This document shows positions 2,232 through 20,537 of a stretch of 31,105 nucleotides of DNA, one piece after another. The stretch is from a virus. Location of the stretch: the IMG/VR virus record IMGVR_UViG_3300035438_000607, positions 1 through 31,105 of that record; one strand, 5' to 3'. Both the position numbers and the translations under genes were made by a program. The notes under the pieces are model-generated. The model was not told the DNA's origin, ran no database searches, and worked only from the letters and a program-made list of their open reading frames with translations. Each line of letters opens with the position of its first letter. Within the stretch, counting starts at the first letter, position 1.

Positions 2232-3251
2232 TTATACATGAAGTCCGTTGTAGATGTCAATCAGTGTTTGGCGATCTATAACTTCACTTTCAATGGCTGT
2301 AAGTTGTTGGACAACAATTTGGTCTACGCTTTCAAAGTGAACATCACCACTCCAATCCTGTGCATGTTCTTCTCGTTTAGCCGGAATCAAACTAATCTCA
2401 CGTAGTTTATATTCTTCTTGCCAACTTTCTTTTAAGAAGTTTGCTTCTTCAAAACTAATGTCAGCATCGCAGGTAACACGCAGGAATGAATTACTATCCA
2501 TGTACTTTGTAGGATCATCAATCAATCTTGTAAGATCAATAGTTTTGAATTTTGGAGCATCGGGCCAAGCAATATATTTAGGCTGTCCGCCAAACTCAAG
2601 TACCATCATACCGCGGTCATCATCCCAAGCATCAGCATAGTTATGTGGAAAGGCATTGCCAGTATATGTAACATTGCCACTGTGCTGTCTCATGTGGAAA
2701 TGTCCACTAAAGACTTTTTCTTGATTAGGAAAATGTCCTTTGTTCAATCCGCCATGATCCGGCATCTCTACCATAGCGTTCATTTTAAAGTTAGGCAGTT
2801 CAAAGTGACCAAATACATAACGACTATCAAGACGCTTCATACTAGTCCACTCGTCACCTACTAACCAAGGAACAAGACTTACTCCACCTTCAGTATAAAC
2901 GTCATTAACCAAAATAACGTTTTTTTGATTTCTAATAAATGGGATACTTGTTAAGTCACGTTTCTCACGATAATATAAATCGTGATTGCCAGCAATAAAA
3001 AAGAAACGTTCAAAATGTTTGCTGATATACTCAATAGCCTCAACAGTATAATTCAATGTACTAACATTAACGGTAGCACGATGATGATGCCAATCGCCCA
3101 TAAAGATTGCTGTGTCACAGTCCTGTCGCTTTGCCTCAGCACAGAACCATTTAACAAAGCCCATACAATCGTCGTTGTGGGCTTTGCTGTTCTGTCTCAT
3201 GCCAAAGTGAATGTCAGTGAAGACTGCTGCCTTCTTAAACATATCTGTCAT
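2232..3251 (-). CDS. 47: Recombination endonuclease subunit, Mre11-like nuclease (T4 gp47)
   Basis: This 339-aa calcineurin-like metallophosphoesterase is the nuclease partner of gp46. The metal-binding motifs appear in the right order: FTDIHFG (Asp13, His15), MGDWHHH (about 51-57), AGNHD (87-91) and SGHFHMR (182-188). Length equals that of T4 gp47. The annotated ATG shares one base with the stop of the upstream gp55 gene. A second ATG three codons later (MFKKAAVFTD) is an equally plausible start and retains all motifs. Gene order gp55-gp47-gp46 places end-processing under the same promoter as the late sigma factor. Confidence 0.95.
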   Translation of the reverse strand: MTDMFKKAAVFTDIHFGMRQNSKAHNDDCMGFVKWFCAEAKRQDCDTAIFMGDWHHHRATVNVSTLNYTVEAIEYISKHFERFFFIAGNHDLYYREKRDLTSIPFIRNQKNVILVNDVYTEGGVSLVPWLVGDEWTSMKRLDSRYVFGHFELPNFKMNAMVEMPDHGGLNKGHFPNQEKVFSGHFHMRQHSGNVTYTGNAFPHNYADAWDDDRGMMVLEFGGQPKYIAWPDAPKFKTIDLTRLIDDPTKYMDSNSFLRVTCDADISFEEANFLKESWQEEYKLREISLIPAKREEHAQDWSGDVHFESVDQIVVQQLTAIESEVIDRQTLIDIYNGLHV

Positions 3252-4123
3252 TAGAAATCCTCTGTTTTAAGATTAGAGATACGTTCACGTTCGTCACGCA
3301 TCATTGTTTCGTGTTCAAACTGTCTAGTGAAACTTGGACTACTACCTGTTTGAATCAACAGGTCGTCTCGAATCATTTGGTTTTTCTTTTCAATATTAAG
3401 GATGCGAGTGAAACTGTTGTCAATAGCGGCAGTATAATACGCAAAAGGGTTCTGCGATTTTGATTCATCGAATTGTAGTCCTATCTGTGATAATTGTAGC
3501 AAGGCTTGGCTACGCATTTCGTCTACATATGTGTAGCCACGCCAGTTAAATCTCATGCTATATCGTTCGCAGAGGAGCATGTAGCTCTTGGCTAGTTTTT
3601 TAGTTATTTCGCCTTCCAAGTTAAATTCTCCAGTGTCCATGTCACCTTTCCAGTGACTCTTACCTACACAGATTAAATCATCTTTTTCTGCACCATCTTC
3701 GGTGCTGAATTTAAAATGTTGAAATGGAGGGAAGTTGCATTTGCTATGATGATCACCTCTGTTCTTGGGAGTTTTTTTACGACCAGGTTCAAGAGGAACA
3801 TGATCGTGTGTCATGATTCTAAACACAACATCAGTTTTAGAGACTTTTTTATAGTCAATTTCAACTTCTGCTAGTTTAGTTTTAGGATTAATTTTTTGAG
3901 CTTCTGCTAGTGCTAAGTGACTAAGGCGTAGTGCCTGAGTTCGTTTTGCTTCGGCAATAGTTCTGATATTAATCTTATCTACGCTAGGTAGAATTAAATC
4001 GTAGTCACTGTATTCTGGTTTAGAATAACTACTATACCGATTTTTACTTAAATGAATTTCTTTAAGTAGTTCCTTGTTAGTCAAGTACTGTTTTGCTAAG
4101 GGGTTTGCTTGTGATGTTGCCAT
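3251..4123 (-). CDS. 55: Late transcription sigma factor, gp55-like, with long N-terminal extension
   Basis: The C-terminal half (about residues 175-270) resembles the T4 gp55 family of minimal sigma factors: a region-2-like stretch around YMLLCERYSMRFNWRGYTY and VDEMRSQALLQL, then SQNPFAYYTAAIDNSFTRIL and a basic tail (NIEKKNQMIRDDLL). gp55 replaces sigma-70 on host RNA polymerase and recognises TATAAATA late promoters, which are present here. The protein is 290 aa, clearly longer than T4 gp55 (about 185 aa). The first ~160 residues form an extension of unknown function containing GRKKTPKNRGDHHSKCNF. The gene is first in a five-gene minus operon. Its promoter (4130-4159) leaves only 6 nt between the -10 box and the ATG, so no Shine-Dalgarno leader is possible. 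The identity rests on C-terminal motifs plus context. Confidence 0.82.
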   Translation of the reverse strand: MATSQANPLAKQYLTNKELLKEIHLSKNRYSSYSKPEYSDYDLILPSVDKINIRTIAEAKRTQALRLSHLALAEAQKINPKTKLAEVEIDYKKVSKTDVVFRIMTHDHVPLEPGRKKTPKNRGDHHSKCNFPPFQHFKFSTEDGAEKDDLICVGKSHWKGDMDTGEFNLEGEITKKLAKSYMLLCERYSMRFNWRGYTYVDEMRSQALLQLSQIGLQFDESKSQNPFAYYTAAIDNSFTRILNIEKKNQMIRDDLLIQTGSSPSFTRQFEHETMMRDERERISNLKTEDF

Positions 4124-11666: not shown

Positions 11667-13187
11667 TTACTTAAACTTGAAGTCAAATTTATATTCATTA
11701 TTTTTTAATTTAGTATATAAAGGTTCGAGTTCTGGAAATACTTCTATAAAATTAGTATTCCTCTTTTTATCTATTGCATCTATACTTTTAACAAAGTCTT
11801 CTGCTAAATCTAAATAATCAAACGGCATTTCTAGCATAGCTGAACAATTAGCAATTTCTCTCAATCCTGCACGATCTTGTCCGACGAAATGCTGATAGCA
11901 CCACGAAAAAGATCTTTTTGTTAAAGTTTTTAATCTTTCGTCTACTGATAAATTTAAAAAATTCCAGACTTTAGGTCCAGTAACATTATTAATATCAATA
12001 GATGCTCTTGTCGAGATATCATTAACTGCATACCATTCAAATAGCTTGTGCATAGTAAGAGCATTAAACAATGTCAACGATGTGCTAACTTTTACATTAA
12101 TGCCTGCATCGTAGAATCTGTTAAAGTTTTCAAGCCATTTATCTTCTCTATATCCATATCTAAAATATTCTCCGCGTTCTCCGTAGTGATCATGACTCAT
12201 AATAATTACAGTATTGTCACCCCATTTTTTCAAATAGTCTTCGACAATGTCTACATTTTTATATGACCTAACGCTGCCATTGGTATGAAACCAGAGATTA
12301 ATTTTATTATTGTAGCCTAATTTCATTAATTCATCTAGCAAAATAAATGTTTCTTTTTGTAAAAAAGGTTCACCGCCATTAAAATGAAGTTGGTCTAAAG
12401 TACTCGCATTTTTTAAAATATATTCAATTTTATTACTATTGTCGATGGTATCAGGATCGACAGAATCCCAATTCTTATTAACTTCACTTTTATATAACCA
12501 ATTTGAAAAAACTTCTTTATACGAAGTGTCGATGGTACTACTTAAACTAGGGATACAATGTAAACATGCAAAGTTACATTTATTTGTCCATATTACATCG
12601 AAAAATTTTAAATTATGTTTTTGTATTTCTCCAGTATCATGGTTGGTATCTGCTAATGATTCTTTTATAACGTCGCAACCTTGTAAATTAGCCAATGTTC
12701 TAGCAGAGCTAGACGAGCTTCCTGCCTTTTCTCGCTCCCAACATTGTTCGCAAGTTTCAGGTTGTTCGTCCTTTAAAAACTGTAAACGAATTTCTTTCGA
12801 AATTGGGTTATTAATAATGTCTTCAAAGGTATCTTTAGTTGTACCGAGAACTTGTGTGCTTGCACAACAAAATTTTACATTACCTTCAGCACTAGTCCAT
12901 AAAGAATTCCACGGTGCCGAACAGAATTTCTTACCGTATTTTTCAAACGTATCTTTTAATACTTTTTCAGGTGGTTCAAATATAATTTTATCAGTTGGAA
13001 CATTGGCAACTACTTTAATTATTCCTGCATCTATATAATGCCGAAGCGATTCTTTAAAATCTACAGGACATTCTGGACTGACTACTAATTCTGCTTTAGG
13101 CACATTACTTCGTGTACGTGTATTGAATACAAAATCAGTGTGACCCGATTCGATAGGGGTTACAGAATTAGTTGATACTCTTGACAT
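11667..13187 (-). CDS. Radical SAM protein with N-terminal SPASM/twitch-like cysteine region
   Basis: This 506-aa protein has the radical SAM iron-sulfur motif C-x3-C-x2-C as CNFACLHC (Cys204, Cys208, Cys211). A FNGGEPFLQKE segment of the SAM-binding barrel follows. Before the core lies a Cys-rich region of the SPASM/twitch kind: FCSAPWNSLW (Cys89), GNVKFCCAS (Cys107/108) and CEQCWEREKAG (Cys146, Cys149), then a serine run. Such regions bind auxiliary iron-sulfur clusters in peptide- or protein-modifying enzymes. Similar twitch/radical SAM proteins occur in marine T4-like phages, but their substrate is unknown. No obvious precursor peptide lies beside it; the neighbouring 47-aa Cys/His protein is the only small candidate. 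No Shine-Dalgarno precedes the ATG. The fold is well supported; the substrate is not. Confidence 0.88.
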   Translation of the reverse strand: MSRVSTNSVTPIESGHTDFVFNTRTRSNVPKAELVVSPECPVDFKESLRHYIDAGIIKVVANVPTDKIIFEPPEKVLKDTFEKYGKKFCSAPWNSLWTSAEGNVKFCCASTQVLGTTKDTFEDIINNPISKEIRLQFLKDEQPETCEQCWEREKAGSSSSSARTLANLQGCDVIKESLADTNHDTGEIQKHNLKFFDVIWTNKCNFACLHCIPSLSSTIDTSYKEVFSNWLYKSEVNKNWDSVDPDTIDNSNKIEYILKNASTLDQLHFNGGEPFLQKETFILLDELMKLGYNNKINLWFHTNGSVRSYKNVDIVEDYLKKWGDNTVIIMSHDHYGERGEYFRYGYREDKWLENFNRFYDAGINVKVSTSLTLFNALTMHKLFEWYAVNDISTRASIDINNVTGPKVWNFLNLSVDERLKTLTKRSFSWCYQHFVGQDRAGLREIANCSAMLEMPFDYLDLAEDFVKSIDAIDKKRNTNFIEVFPELEPLYTKLKNNEYKFDFKFK

Positions 13188-15955: not shown

Positions 15956-16246
15956 TTACTTTTTGGCTACGTTTCTAGCGGATTCAAAAATACGCATGGC
16001 ATCTTGCAAACGAAAGTTATCCTGACGATAATGCCAATCTTTTTTACGTTGTGCTGTATCTAATGCATCCATTAATGCATATTTGTCTTTTAAATTATTT
16101 GTTTGCATTAACATAGAAGACATATCTACAATATCTAAAGCATACTCTACCCATTTATGTGTGCTATTAATTTTGTCTTTTTTAAGAAAAACTAATTTGC
16201 TTGAACCCGTTTTTGCATACTTTTGTTTGTAATTTGCTACATTCAT
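15956..16246 (-). CDS. Hypothetical basic protein, 96 aa
   Basis: This unrecognised 96-aa protein is Lys-rich and mostly helical (MNVANYKQKYAKTGSSKLVF, then HKWVEYALDIVDMSSMLMQT and LQDAMRIFESARNVAKK). It has no signal peptide or membrane segment. The ATG comes 3 nt after a 13-bp hairpin, and the only Shine-Dalgarno-like bases (TAGGT) are inside the 3' arm of that hairpin. Translation may therefore depend on melting the stem. It has its own promoter and no operon partner, as do its two neighbours. Confidence 0.6.
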   Translation of the reverse strand: MNVANYKQKYAKTGSSKLVFLKKDKINSTHKWVEYALDIVDMSSMLMQTNNLKDKYALMDALDTAQRKKDWHYRQDNFRLQDAMRIFESARNVAKK

Positions 16247-16280
16247 AAAAATACCTACTAGTTGTGGACTAGTAGGTATT
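16247..16280 (-). terminator. 13-bp hairpin plus T-tract at the 5' end of the 96-aa gene
   Basis: On the minus strand AATACCTACTAGT and ACTAGTAGGTATT (16280-16268 and 16262-16250) form a perfect 13-bp stem with a 5-nt loop, followed directly by Ts and the ATG at 16246. For transcripts from the upstream 108-aa gene it has the form of an intrinsic terminator. For transcripts from the local promoter the stem begins about at the first base and hides the TAGGT ribosome-binding bases. The left part overlaps the -10 box. Confidence 0.65.
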
Positions 16281-16306
16281 TTACTATAAAACTGATTTTA
16301 TGTCAA
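16278..16306 (-). promoter_or_regulatory. Sigma-70 promoter of the 96-aa gene
   Basis: TTGACA (16306-16301), 17 nt and TAAAAT (16283-16278) lie on the minus strand. TTGACA begins on the base directly after the TAA stop of the 108-aa gene (16309-16307). The predicted transcription start is near 16271, inside the 5' arm of the 13-bp hairpin. Confidence 0.75.
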
Positions 16307-16633
16307 TTAAATTATTTTTTCAATAACGGCAGCGCCACCGTCGATTGATTCTTCAACTTTTAATGTCATATTATTTGCAACAATATAGTCATTGCGTTTG
16401 ATCCATATCATAGGGTCGGTTTCTGTCGCTTTAGTAATCCAATTTTGATAAGTTTCATATGAATCAAAAGTTAATTCAGTAGTTTTAGTTAATTGGTCAG
16501 TTGAAGTGGTCATTGTTTTGGATAATACAAGCGCATCGTTATAGAAGCTTTGCAGTACCATGCTATCAGGCGTATCAGAAAACCAAATGATCGATGTATT
16601 TGGTTTAGTTAGTGTGGATGTTACTTTAAACAC
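16307..16633 (-). CDS. Hypothetical protein, 108 aa
   Basis: This unrecognised 108-aa protein begins at a GTG codon, supported by AGGAG 7 nt upstream. The sequence alternates strands and helices (MFKVTSTLTKPNTSIIWFSD, TFDSYETYQNWITKATETDP, VEESIDGGAAVIEKII) and is Thr/Ser-rich. The pattern is compatible with a small ferredoxin-like alpha/beta fold, but this is only an impression. It is the first gene of the minus cluster and stands divergent to the late PP-loop operon. Both sigma-70-like and late-like boxes lie upstream. Confidence 0.6.
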   Translation of the reverse strand: MFKVTSTLTKPNTSIIWFSDTPDSMVLQSFYNDALVLSKTMTTSTDQLTKTTELTFDSYETYQNWITKATETDPMIWIKRNDYIVANNMTLKVEESIDGGAAVIEKII

Positions 16634-16736: not shown

Positions 16737-16744
16737 TATTTATA
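16737..16744 (-). promoter_or_regulatory. Perfect TATAAATA box on the minus strand (tentative late promoter)
   Basis: An exact TATAAATA read leftward lies 19 bp from the plus-strand late box (16756-16763), giving a divergent pair. No start codon follows at 5 nt. The first gene reached is the 108-aa gene about 100 nt downstream. It may be real with a long leader, or chance. Confidence 0.35.
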
Positions 16745-16755
16745 TGATTAGCTTA

Positions 16756-16763
16756 TATAAATA
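16756..16763 (+). promoter_or_regulatory. T4-type late promoter TATAAATA for the PP-loop/flavoprotein/TctC operon
   Basis: An exact TATAAATA lies 5 nt before the ATG at 16769, the same spacing as at 4191. No Shine-Dalgarno can fit. It marks the three following metabolic-looking genes as late-expressed. Confidence 0.82.
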
Positions 16764-16768
16764 TTTTA

Positions 16769-17917
16769 ATGCATAAACAGCACGGGTATTATACAGTAGA
16801 CGGCATCGATTTCCAATCAAAAATCCAGGCTTGCATATTTGCAAACACACACAATAAAAAAGTTGAATGGAAATTCAACAACGAAGCGTTTAACACGTAT
16901 AATTGGAGTATAGAGCCAGATGCTTCATTAGATCAATTATATGACAAAAGAGCTAAAGATCTTAGGGAAAAGTACGACTACTTAATTTTGAGTTATAGCG
17001 GCGGCGCCGACAGCCATAACATACTCATGGCATTTATTAGACAAAATCTTCATATCGATGAAATCGTTGTCAATGTAATGGAAAAAGCCAATAGTAAATT
17101 TACAATCATAGATCCTAACAATAAATCCAATTGGAACGCAGGTGCAGAACACAAACTTCAAACTGTGCCTAGACTTAAAGAAATAGAAAATACAATACCT
17201 AGGACAAAAATCACTGTGTTGGACCTAAGTGATTTCTTATTCAATTCTTTTATAGAATATGGTGATGCTAGTTGGGTAGTAGATAGAACTGAAGGATTGA
17301 ATCCTTTAAATGTAACACGATTCAATTACACGTATTTCAAAGAAGTTAAGAATCAATTTGATAAAAACCATAAAATAGGATTGATTGTTGGTGTCGATAA
17401 ACCTAGAACATTTATAGTCAACAATGAATTACACATGGCCTTTGATGATAGAGCGGCGAATATTGTTCCAGTATCTGACTATCTTGTTGATTACACTAAT
17501 TCGTCTGTGGAATTCTTTTATTGGAGTCCTGATGCTTTAGATATGTTATGCAAACAAGCCCATGTTATAAAAAGGTATATTGAATCTAATCCAGATAAAA
17601 AACACTTATGGGAAAATTTAACAGCAGAAAAATTTAGATTAGTGCATGAAAGACTGCTTAGAACAATACTATACACGACTTGGAATGATTCTTGGTATCA
17701 AGCAGATAAAGCAACTAAAGATTGGTATAGTGAATTCGATGACTGGTTTGCTCGAGGATATGCTGAAACCGCGTCTTATAATATTTGGAAAGAAGGCATT
17801 AGTTATGTAGAAAATAATGCCGGGAAGTTTATAAAATATAAAAATGGCATAGCCGATGGTCTTTTAAATTTTAAATACACATACAAAATAGGCCGCATAA
17901 ATCATCATGAATTTTAA
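16769..17917 (+). CDS. PP-loop ATP pyrophosphatase-like protein
   Basis: This 382-aa protein has the PP-loop motif SGGADS (residues 77-82) after the hydrophobic strand YLILSY. That is the ATP-binding signature of N-type ATP pyrophosphatases, which adenylate a substrate (asparagine synthase, QueC, GMP synthase, ThiI, PAPS reductase and others). Before it is a ~70-residue N-terminal segment (GYYTVDGIDFQSKIQACIFA and following). The C-terminal half is long, Trp/Tyr-rich and helical, and I cannot match it to a named member. No glutaminase domain or zinc CxxC of QueC is seen. The start is fixed by the late promoter 5 nt upstream. The stop overlaps the next gene by 11 nt. It probably activates or amidates a small molecule or a base; the substrate is unknown. 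Confidence 0.75.
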   Translation: MHKQHGYYTVDGIDFQSKIQACIFANTHNKKVEWKFNNEAFNTYNWSIEPDASLDQLYDKRAKDLREKYDYLILSYSGGADSHNILMAFIRQNLHIDEIVVNVMEKANSKFTIIDPNNKSNWNAGAEHKLQTVPRLKEIENTIPRTKITVLDLSDFLFNSFIEYGDASWVVDRTEGLNPLNVTRFNYTYFKEVKNQFDKNHKIGLIVGVDKPRTFIVNNELHMAFDDRAANIVPVSDYLVDYTNSSVEFFYWSPDALDMLCKQAHVIKRYIESNPDKKHLWENLTAEKFRLVHERLLRTILYTTWNDSWYQADKATKDWYSEFDDWFARGYAETASYNIWKEGISYVENNAGKFIKYKNGIADGLLNFKYTYKIGRINHHEF

Positions 17918-18809
17918 AAATTATTTCGGAACAAAATATCCTATCGTTTCAATGCCAATGAACAAAGTTTCTGATTTAACTTTGGCTATGGCTGTAAGAC
18001 GTGCAGGAGCATTACCCAGTTTATCTATATTCAACTACAGCGATGTTGCTTTGCTAGAGCAAGATCTGATTGATTATAAAAAAGAATTTAACGACACTAA
18101 ACTTTTATTAAGTATCAGCGATAAAGAATTAAGAATGCAATCGGTTTGTAACTTAATTATACAACATCAAATTGAATTTGTCGAAATACTACAACACACG
18201 CCAGGAGAAGGGTTGTTAATACAACCTTCATATGAAGAATTTCAATCCAAGACACAACTTGAAAAAGCAAATTTAGAACTTATTAGAAATAATAATGTTA
18301 AAGTTTTTTTAAAAACCCACAATACTAAAAATATAGAATACATAGTCGACGGGCTTGTTCTAAAAGGACAAGACGGTGCAGGTCGTGGAACTGAATCATT
18401 GGAAACATTGTTCGCAGACATTAAAAAACACAGCCCAGATTTGCTAGTAATTGTTTCAGGCGGCATTGGCACAGCCGAGCAAGTCAAACATTACTTAGAC
18501 AATGGTGCCAATGCTGTTGGCATAGGAACGTTATTAGCAGTATCAAAAGAATGTAAAATATCAAATGAAACAAAACTTAAAATGATAGAATCTACTTCCA
18601 ATGATATTAAGAAATTCAATAACGGTGCTGTTCAAAACGCATTAATTTTTACAGAAATTGCCAATGATACGTTTAATCATACTCAAGGATTAGAACAAGG
18701 TATTGCCGGCACATCGTCTGGACACATATTTGCAGGCACCGGAATAGATCATATCTCTGAAATTAGACCTGTTTCTGATATTATAGATGATTTAATAAAA
18801 TTAATCTAA
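17907..18809 (+). CDS. Nitronate-monooxygenase-like FMN-dependent TIM-barrel protein
   Basis: This 300-aa protein fits the nitronate monooxygenase / 2-nitropropane dioxygenase fold. It has the N-terminal YPIVSMPMNKVSDLTLAMAV followed by RRAGALPSLS, then LKGQDGAGRG (about 153-161), VIVSGGIGTAEQVKHYLDNG and ANAVGIGTLL (about 181-210). The last two parts form the FMN phosphate-binding strand-loop pairs. In characterised class I enzymes the middle motif carries a catalytic His in a GGH context; here the stretch reads GAGRG with no His, so classical activity is doubtful. Enoyl-ACP reductases of the FabK type share the fold. The coding region overlaps the PP-loop gene by 11 nt and ends 7 nt before the TctC-like gene, so the three are co-translated late. 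Confidence 0.75.
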   Translation: MNFKNYFGTKYPIVSMPMNKVSDLTLAMAVRRAGALPSLSIFNYSDVALLEQDLIDYKKEFNDTKLLLSISDKELRMQSVCNLIIQHQIEFVEILQHTPGEGLLIQPSYEEFQSKTQLEKANLELIRNNNVKVFLKTHNTKNIEYIVDGLVLKGQDGAGRGTESLETLFADIKKHSPDLLVIVSGGIGTAEQVKHYLDNGANAVGIGTLLAVSKECKISNETKLKMIESTSNDIKKFNNGAVQNALIFTEIANDTFNHTQGLEQGIAGTSSGHIFAGTGIDHISEIRPVSDIIDDLIKLI

Positions 18810-18816
18810 TTTAAAA

Positions 18817-19713
18817 ATGAAAAAACTTTTTTTAGTATTAATAATGTACATCCTTGCCTCTTCAGTTAATGCTGTAGAGCTTACTGTGCATCATGCACCA
18901 GGCGGACCTAGCGATAAAATTACAAGACTGATTGCTAAAAATTTACCGGCATACACTATTCAAAATAGACCAGGTGCGGCTGGCAGAATTGCAGTTAAAC
19001 ATATATTACAAGGAAACAGCGTATTAACTGCTACAATCCCGCAGATTTACGTAACAAATCCTTTAATGTTTCCTGACTTAGAATACAATCCAGAAACCGA
19101 TTTAGAAATAATAGGGGTTGCGGCAATAATGACAAATTTATTAGTTTGTAATTCAAAATTGGAAATTAAAAACTTTAAAGATTTATTAGCTACTACTAAA
19201 TCTTTAAGTTTTGCAACCAGCGGTTATGGTAGTTCGGACCATATTGCTTCAGAAGCATTATTTGTACATACCAAAGCCAAACATATAATCATTCCTTACC
19301 CAACAGGAGGTAATAAAAGTGTATTTGATGTAGTAGGCGGAAGTGTTGATTGTACTTTTGGTAACTATGCAACTGTTAAGTCAATAATGAATGATCCTCG
19401 GGTTACTGTTTTATTTTCTAGTCATGCTATTGTAGATAAAATCCCTACATGGGAACAATACTTTAAAGAGACATTTCCCTATCAAAGTTATATTGCTTTA
19501 GTTGTAGCAAAAAGCATGGAATCTGAAAAGAAGAAACAAGTAATATCAGATATTTCTAAAGTTTTTTCTAACAAAGAATATAAAGATGCTGTTAAAGAAT
19601 TAGGATTATTGCCAATAGGATCAACAGAATCATGGATAATAAATTCTGTGATCAAAGAAAATAAATCACTGACTAGATTTATAGTAAATAATAGATTGCA
19701 AATTAAGCAATAA
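18817..19713 (+). CDS. Exported TctC/Bug-type solute-binding protein
   Basis: This 298-aa protein starts with a classical signal peptide (MKK, hydrophobic LFLVLIMYILASS, cleavage after VNA at about residue 19). The mature part matches the TctC/Bug family of periplasmic receptors of tripartite tricarboxylate transporters: PGGPSDKITRLIA, the PGAAGRIAVKHI loop, then ATSGYGSSDHIASEALF and PYPTGGNKSVFDVVGGSVDC. These loops bind carboxylates such as citrate, nicotinate or amino acids. No TctA/TctB membrane genes are near, so it would use host permeases or act as a binding protein alone. Length is normal for the family (about 300 aa). It is third in a late operon, an unusual product for a phage. I see no lipoprotein Cys. 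Confidence 0.85.
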   Translation: MKKLFLVLIMYILASSVNAVELTVHHAPGGPSDKITRLIAKNLPAYTIQNRPGAAGRIAVKHILQGNSVLTATIPQIYVTNPLMFPDLEYNPETDLEIIGVAAIMTNLLVCNSKLEIKNFKDLLATTKSLSFATSGYGSSDHIASEALFVHTKAKHIIIPYPTGGNKSVFDVVGGSVDCTFGNYATVKSIMNDPRVTVLFSSHAIVDKIPTWEQYFKETFPYQSYIALVVAKSMESEKKKQVISDISKVFSNKEYKDAVKELGLLPIGSTESWIINSVIKENKSLTRFIVNNRLQIKQ

Positions 19714-19721
19714 TTTGACTA

Positions 19722-20537
19722 TTACTTTAACCCTAGACTCTTGCGAATTTTAGTTGCACTGATATCAGTGATAGATTCATCAAAAGTTTCTTCGCCAGAG
19801 GTGTATCCTACACCGCGACCCCAGCCAATATGAACAATATTAGGAACTACTTGTATTTCGTACTGTCCTTGGTATAACATATCTAAATCTCGTCGAATAA
19901 AGCCTTTGACTTTGTCAACTTCAAACGGGTTGCTACCCTGCCAACCTTGCACATCGCGAATTTGAATAATAACTTGCCCAGTTTTAGCTAACAATCTTTC
20001 GAACAAGGCACGATGTCCATCATGCCATGGTTGCCAACGGCCTAACATCTGTACTGTTTCTTTTTTCCAATCGAATATAGGACGTCTGCGATTATCTATG
20101 ATATGTGCGGCAACAAATTCACCCCACTTAACAGCATTTTGTTCTGTGATTCTAAAATCATAAACTTCGGGAGGAATAAAGGCTTTGTTAGTATCTTCGT
20201 ATCGACCCTTGTCAATAGTATCAACCCAAATAGTCCAGTCTGCTTTAAAGTTATTACGCATTTCAACCAAAGGTGCAACAAAGTCACAGATGACATAATC
20301 TACGTCTGTCATAGCATCTGCTAGTTCACGCATACGCAAACTTTGGCGAATACGACCTGCTTCACTAAAATCCCAGTCATTATATTTTTTACGTACATCG
20401 TCGGCATTAAGCCAACCCACACGTTTTTTCTCTGCTTGTAAATGGTCAACAATGTGTTGAGCCAAATATGTCTTACCAGCTCCAGGTAAGCCCATTATTA
20501 ATATTCTTTGCGGGTTATGATTCATAGTGATGTTCAT
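19722..20537 (-). CDS. Fusion of APS-kinase-like P-loop kinase and nucleotidyltransferase
   Basis: This 271-aa protein has two domains. The first (about residues 10-155) has the Walker A GLPGAGKT (16-23) and LNADDVRKKYNDWDFSEAGR, then IRQSLRMRELADAM, matching the adenylylsulfate kinase (CysC) family. The second (about 162-271) has GRWQPWHDGHRALFE (166-180) and a late ISATKIRKSL, the HxGH-type and ISxTxIR motifs of NMN adenylyltransferase/cytidylyltransferase enzymes. It could phosphorylate a small alcohol and then couple a nucleotide to a product, or act in NAD salvage as a NadR-like enzyme in reversed order. Sulfate assimilation is unlikely without neighbours. The start overlaps the upstream DUF465-like gene by about 23 nt; a second ATG at 20525 is possible. 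Confidence 0.8.
   Translation of the reverse strand: MNITMNHNPQRILIMGLPGAGKTYLAQHIVDHLQAEKKRVGWLNADDVRKKYNDWDFSEAGRIRQSLRMRELADAMTDVDYVICDFVAPLVEMRNNFKADWTIWVDTIDKGRYEDTNKAFIPPEVYDFRITEQNAVKWGEFVAAHIIDNRRRPIFDWKKETVQMLGRWQPWHDGHRALFERLLAKTGQVIIQIRDVQGWQGSNPFEVDKVKGFIRRDLDMLYQGQYEIQVVPNIVHIGWGRGVGYTSGEETFDESITDISATKIRKSLGLK

Follow-up and report, generated by a model that had tools for sequence, protein, structure and literature searches.

Three tightly packed open reading frames on the plus strand of a 31,105-base IMG/VR virus record (hereafter the window, meaning the whole stretch of DNA analysed) raise the question of why a phage should carry together a PP-loop ATPase, a flavoprotein resembling nitronate monooxygenase and an exported solute-binding protein, and whether the three act as one. 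The original prediction was of a single late operon with a joint function, and its description of the layout is borne out: the PP-loop gene (16769-17917; family F0) overlaps the flavoprotein gene (17907-18809) by 11 nt, and 7 nt separate the latter from the TctC gene (18817-19713). In large uncultivated T4-type phages, the side-by-side occurrence, in changing order, of the PP-loop protein, a predicted ligase, with TctC and often with a flavin enzyme suggests that they import an acid and make an amide product during infection.

The window also encodes gp46/47-like proteins, a gp55-like late sigma factor (3251-4123, minus strand, outside the module; phrog_12791, E 1.4e-73), gp25, gp6-like baseplate proteins and a DNA ligase. 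As the nearest relatives of its gp6 come from Salicola phage SCTP-2, Agrobacterium phage Atu_ph07 and Pseudomonas phage PA5oct, whose genomes are each ~285 kb or more, the window is probably a fragment of a large T4-superfamily myovirus. The convergent neighbour of the TctC gene (19722-20537, minus strand) encodes a P-loop, APS_kinase-like kinase (phrog_10255, E 6e-44) with a nucleotidyltransferase-like segment at its C terminus (RWQPWHDGH), and is possibly a NadR-like or nucleotide-repair enzyme. A hairpin of CCTACTAGT and ACTAGTAGG with a T run (16247-16285, minus strand), terminator-like in appearance, abuts the start codon of ORF 15956-16246 on its upstream side.

The PP-loop protein and its structural relatives

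The designation of the first protein as a PP-loop ATPase holds for the motif and can be refined to a particular fold. The 382-residue F0 protein of the window carries SYSGGADS, which fits SGGxDS, and S77, G79 and D81 are invariant across 66 family members. The family is unnamed: F0 has no match in Pfam, NCBIfam or PHROG, Pfam Asn_synthase matches none of the 66 members, and the F0 profile, searched against PDB sequences, gave chance matches only. An AF2 model built from the 66 relatives (pLDDT 94.6) is more informative, as the 11 best matches of the fold search are all to ASNS, AsnB and the beta-lactam and carbapenam synthetases (Z 11.0 to 8.1) and cover residues 3-367, and every other PP-loop enzyme falls below Z 8. 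The match to AsnB (1ct9) has Z 11.0 and an rmsd of 5.0 over 282 aligned residues, that to beta-lactam synthetase (1m1z) has Z 9.9, and Foldseek likewise ranks carbapenam and beta-lactam synthetase first; hhalign of F0 against AsnB, using sequence alone, aligned only the PP-loop. At 10% identity, a Z of 11 on a predicted model speaks for the fold of F0 and not for its reaction. Enzymes of this fold class, among them AsnB, beta-lactam synthetase and the lasso-peptide cyclases, adenylate a carboxylate and then form an amide, and the site of the beta-lactam and carbapenam synthetases holds a catalytic Tyr-Glu pair and a Lys. From the modelled fold we infer that F0 may carry out the same two steps as a stand-alone amide ligase.

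What F0 lacks is a glutaminase domain, since only ~50 of its residues lie ahead of the PP-loop domain, and Cys2, the glutaminase nucleophile, is present in just one of the 66 F0 members and in none of 31 members of F1. The latter, a second asparagine-synthetase-like family and the usual neighbour of F0 in F0 loci, is absent from the 31-kb fragment. Its predicted fold matches human ASNS with Z 15.7, Pfam Asn_synthase recognises 9 of the 31 members, and the PP-loop region is common to F1 and F0 (hhalign probability 96.5%). Roles in DNA hypermodification and in NAD repair were considered and dropped, given the fold of F0 and F1 and the transporter link described below.

A single-protein scan of IMG/VR found four F0 relatives at 55-60% identity, and a profile scan found 204 stretches that encode a relative, with 78 loci listed; the contigs, which are fragments, reach 524 kb, and single records have up to five divergent copies. 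Of 29 such records tested, 12 gave a match to a T4-type gp23 capsid protein. Among 50,697 phage records of INPHARED, tblastn with F0, a divergent F0, F1 and two TctC proteins found no match, and no cellular F0 relative came from bacterial genomes scanned twice with narrow patterns. In BFVD the near neighbours of F0 are exclusively uncharacterised proteins of uncultured Caudovirales phages.

Linkage of the families and the case for uptake

If the families belong together, they should be neighbours beyond one phage, and they are. In 27 long F0-seeded records, counted after four near-duplicates had been dropped, 17 of 23 TctC genes have F0 no more than 3 kb away where random placement leads one to expect 2.2, the simulated count never exceeding 8 in 20,000 runs; for the flavoprotein the figure is 9 of 10 (0.9 expected). 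A scan seeded with TctC (alignment A8; alignment A5 was too diverse) placed F0 within 0.7 kb at 32 of 32 loci, mostly touching, with a profile that was built mostly from F0-adjacent TctC and is biased accordingly towards F0 neighbours; 11 of its contigs were new relative to the F0-seeded set. Seeding with the flavoprotein gave F0 within 2 kb at 36 of 56 loci, and in 18 of 20 distinct cases at most 3 kb separates F1 from TctC. Co-occurrence of F0, flavoprotein and TctC within 5 kb, the check proposed with the original prediction, was found across many contigs, in at least seven orders and orientations. As 14 of 20 distinct TctC genes are convergent with F0, 4 run in the same direction and 2 are divergent, the linkage is not a by-product of a single operon.

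The distances within these families tell a similar story for two of the pairs. F0 and TctC correlate with r 0.68 and F0 and F1 with r 0.71 (both p 2e-4), values to which shared phage ancestry, left in the correlations, may contribute in part; for F0 and the flavoprotein the correlation is weak or none (r 0.23, p 0.06). On the strength of the linkage and of these correlations, we regard F1, F0 and TctC as the core and the flavoprotein as a frequent but exchangeable companion. The three-family system first proposed thus survives in altered form: the families do belong together well beyond this one phage, and PP-loop and TctC genes are not scattered over unrelated places, but there is no fixed three-gene operon and the tightest partners of F0 are TctC and F1.

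Shuffled order and orientation are also what one would see if these were mobile auxiliary genes, exchanged at shared hot spots of large phage genomes without any joint function. Many further enzyme families are found repeatedly at these loci, including radical SAM proteins, desaturases, fatty acid (FA) hydroxylases, Rieske and 2OG-Fe oxygenases and GNATs, and the flavoprotein shows no clear co-variation with F0, both of which suit such a pool. The window itself has one of these genes, for a SPASM-type radical SAM protein that clusters with family F5 (11667-13187, minus strand; phrog_14086, E 2.6e-17), 3.6 kb from F0 on the opposite strand. From a hot spot one would expect a mixture of partners, however, yet every one of the 32 TctC loci adjoins F0, the F0-TctC and F0-F1 distances are correlated, and F0 is paired with these families at two separate sites within one record (G007, G008 and G025). 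The invariable adjacency and the correlations weaken this explanation, which we consider unlikely.

Two further recurrences were seen in the F0 loci. Small DUF2061 membrane proteins (family F8) are encoded no more than three genes from F0 in 15 of 70 lineages (for example L014, L008, L009 and L010), and genes that by eye resemble those for AhpC peroxiredoxin and rubrerythrin recur (L011, 19988-20539, minus strand; L032, 6283-6729), so that the clusters may have oxidative chemistry as a theme.

The identification of the third gene product as a TctC-type binding protein stands (298 residues; Pfam TctC PF03401, E 7.8e-14). Read by eye, its N terminus is hydrophobic and ends in VNA, and the putative Sec signal peptide MKKLFLVLIMYILASSVNA (18817-18873, plus strand) has no lipobox. 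The family profile matches TTT/Bug structures (2dvz, E 3e-47; 7ndr; a terephthalate-binding protein), PGG, NRPG and GSS loops are conserved, and identity to the best plasmid-borne bacterial relatives found is ~32%. Bug/TTT binding proteins bind amino acids or carboxylates. Neither a TctA nor a TctB gene was seen beside TctC in the 31-kb window. Among 33 related records, a TctA permease gene is absent in 28 and present in five, in each of them adjoining F0 or within ~2 kb of it; TctB is above the cut-off in one of these (L089, as TctB-TctA) and weak in another, and a run of F0-TctC-TctA occurs in L092, whose source record has a gp23 capsid gene. DctP, a TRAP-type binding protein (F43), also occurs in F0 clusters. 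The presence there of TctA and DctP speaks for uptake, rather than action as decoys, as the task of the binding proteins, so that the blocking of competing uptake, one of the roles originally suggested, is less likely than transport.

Viewed across the virus-record loci, TctA permease genes in L089, L090, L091, L092, L093 and L094 represent phage-borne TTT transporters, with a TctC-like gene adjoining in L090, L092 and L094. A third PP-loop family (F27, MYSGGIDS) adjoins DctP in L020, L021, L022, L025 and L029, mirroring the pairing of F0 with TctC, and in L010 it is F0 itself that DctP adjoins.

Uptake need not lead to anything new: TctC might simply boost the import of dicarboxylates or amino acids, with F0 and F1 serving nitrogen storage or the synthesis of common amides such as asparagine. 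The match of the TctC profile to binders of amino acids or carboxylates suits such scavenging, and PstS is a known example of a binding protein encoded by phages (PMC6359870). It is harder to reconcile with as many as five divergent F0 copies in a record, with the missing glutaminase domain, with the great distance of F0 from AsnB, with the many oxidative enzymes nearby and with promoters that are of late rather than early type, and we judge it improbable.

The flavoprotein and the timing of expression

The nitronate-monooxygenase-like label of the second protein (300 residues) is upheld by Pfam (NMO PF03060, E 7e-16) and fails at the active site. The profile of the family falls between FabK and nitronate monooxygenase structures, within the NMO/FabK-like TIM-barrel flavoproteins. 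Where FabK has the catalytic EGxEGGGH, the phage family has KGxxGAGR (KGQDGAGR in the window); the position of the GGH catalytic His is an Arg in the window protein and is replaced in most members, the GGH string being found in just 1 of 22. With that His replaced, 'nitronate monooxygenase' is a label for the superfamily only. The glycine-rich FMN loops are kept, SGG and GxGT being conserved in the FabK alignment. On these sequence grounds flavin binding is plausible, and there is no support for the chemistry of nitronate monooxygenase or FabK. Matches to the flavoprotein in INPHARED, in records of Listeria phages and in a single faecal phage record, were at 21-26% identity and were taken as superfamily-level.

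A putative T4-type late promoter, the box TATAAATA (16756-16763, plus strand), lies 5 nt ahead of the F0 start codon, a spacing that implies a nearly leaderless mRNA; gp25 of the window has a similar box at similar spacing. Taken by itself the octamer is unremarkable, with 3 occurrences in the window against 5.6 expected. It is the wider comparison, over 79 loci, that lends weight: among operon-first genes, 17 of 29 of F0 (2.3 expected) and 63 of 158 of the cluster families (10.7 expected) have TAAATA in the 40 nt that precede them, against just 2 of 48 internal F0 genes (3.1 expected). This enrichment, together with the gp55-like sigma factor of the window, which could read such a promoter, makes a late promoter of the F0 operon credible, and expression is probably late, as the original prediction had it. 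On the minus strand a second TATAAATA (16737-16744) lies at a distance of 12 nt and is a candidate promoter for the leftward ORF 16307-16633.

Late-type promoters and the asparagine-synthetase fold shared by F0 and F1 would also fit a different task, in which, late in infection, the two proteins turn carboxyl groups of host surface glycans or of the cell wall into amides, steering lysis or excluding other phages, with TctC sensing or supplying a precursor. AsnH/LtsA-type asparagine synthetase homologues amidate peptidoglycan, and the desaturases and FA hydroxylases of the pool could act on membranes. Disruption of asnH, an asparagine synthetase homologue of L. casei, is reported to result in phage resistance (PMC3885529). 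The annotated pool families, however, include no glycosyltransferase or cell-wall gene, and this reading leaves unexplained why F0 has binding proteins and the TctA permease as neighbours; envelope amidation therefore seems to us rather unlikely.

A proposed import-and-amidate module and its known counterparts

The reading that we prefer, and to which we give an even chance, is of a phage module, expressed late, in which F0 and TctC, usually joined by F1 in relatives, would capture a carboxylate and use it for amide synthesis. TctC would be exported, bind a carboxylate-type ligand outside the inner membrane and pass it to a TctAB permease, mostly that of the host and in some cases one encoded by the phage. 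In the cytoplasm F0 (and F1) would use ATP to adenylate the carboxyl group and join it to an amine, and the amide bond could be intra- or intermolecular, as in the products of asparagine or beta-lactam synthetases. Tailoring would then be left to interchangeable enzymes: the NMO-like protein and, elsewhere, radical SAM proteins, desaturases, Rieske and 2OG-Fe oxygenases and GNATs. It is possible, if somewhat doubtful, that large phages go as far as running a complete small-molecule pathway of this kind late in infection, with import through TctC and, at times, a complete TTT transporter, an amide or lactam made by paired ligases, and decoration by swappable flavin, radical SAM and oxygenase enzymes.

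Whatever the product, two unnamed enzyme families that are widespread in large aquatic phages are tied to carboxylate uptake, and some of the phages add a TTT permease. Families now annotated only as uncharacterised thereby gain a directly testable function. If the proposal is right, these phages run a dedicated late pathway of import and amidation, beyond topping up host metabolism, and the target of its compound may be the cell, competitors or the virion.

Among the papers listed on phage TctC, NMO, asparagine-synthase and desaturase clusters, none gives a description of this gene set, in line with the original remark that no such system was known to its author. Phage-borne transport components do have precedents in cyanophage PstS and in a tctA domain match on a putative SUP05 viral contig (PMC4164917); the present loci differ in their linked amide ligase, none being reported in those cases. 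The phage flavoprotein shares with FabK and nitronate monooxygenase the TIM-barrel profile and the glycine-rich FMN-phosphate loops, and departs from them in having KGxxGAGR in place of EGxEGGGH, with the GGH catalytic His replaced. F0 and F1 resemble asparagine synthetase B and the beta-lactam and carbapenam synthetases in predicted fold and in the SGGxDS PP-loop, whereas F0 is without the N-terminal glutaminase, is only ~10% identical to them and is invisible to Pfam Asn_synthase. Finally, the phage TctC belongs with the TctC/Bug proteins of tripartite tricarboxylate transporters over most of its length, in its putative signal sequence and in its PGG, NRPG and GSS loops but, unlike them, it usually has no adjoining TctAB and, wherever its clade has been seen, it always lies beside F0.
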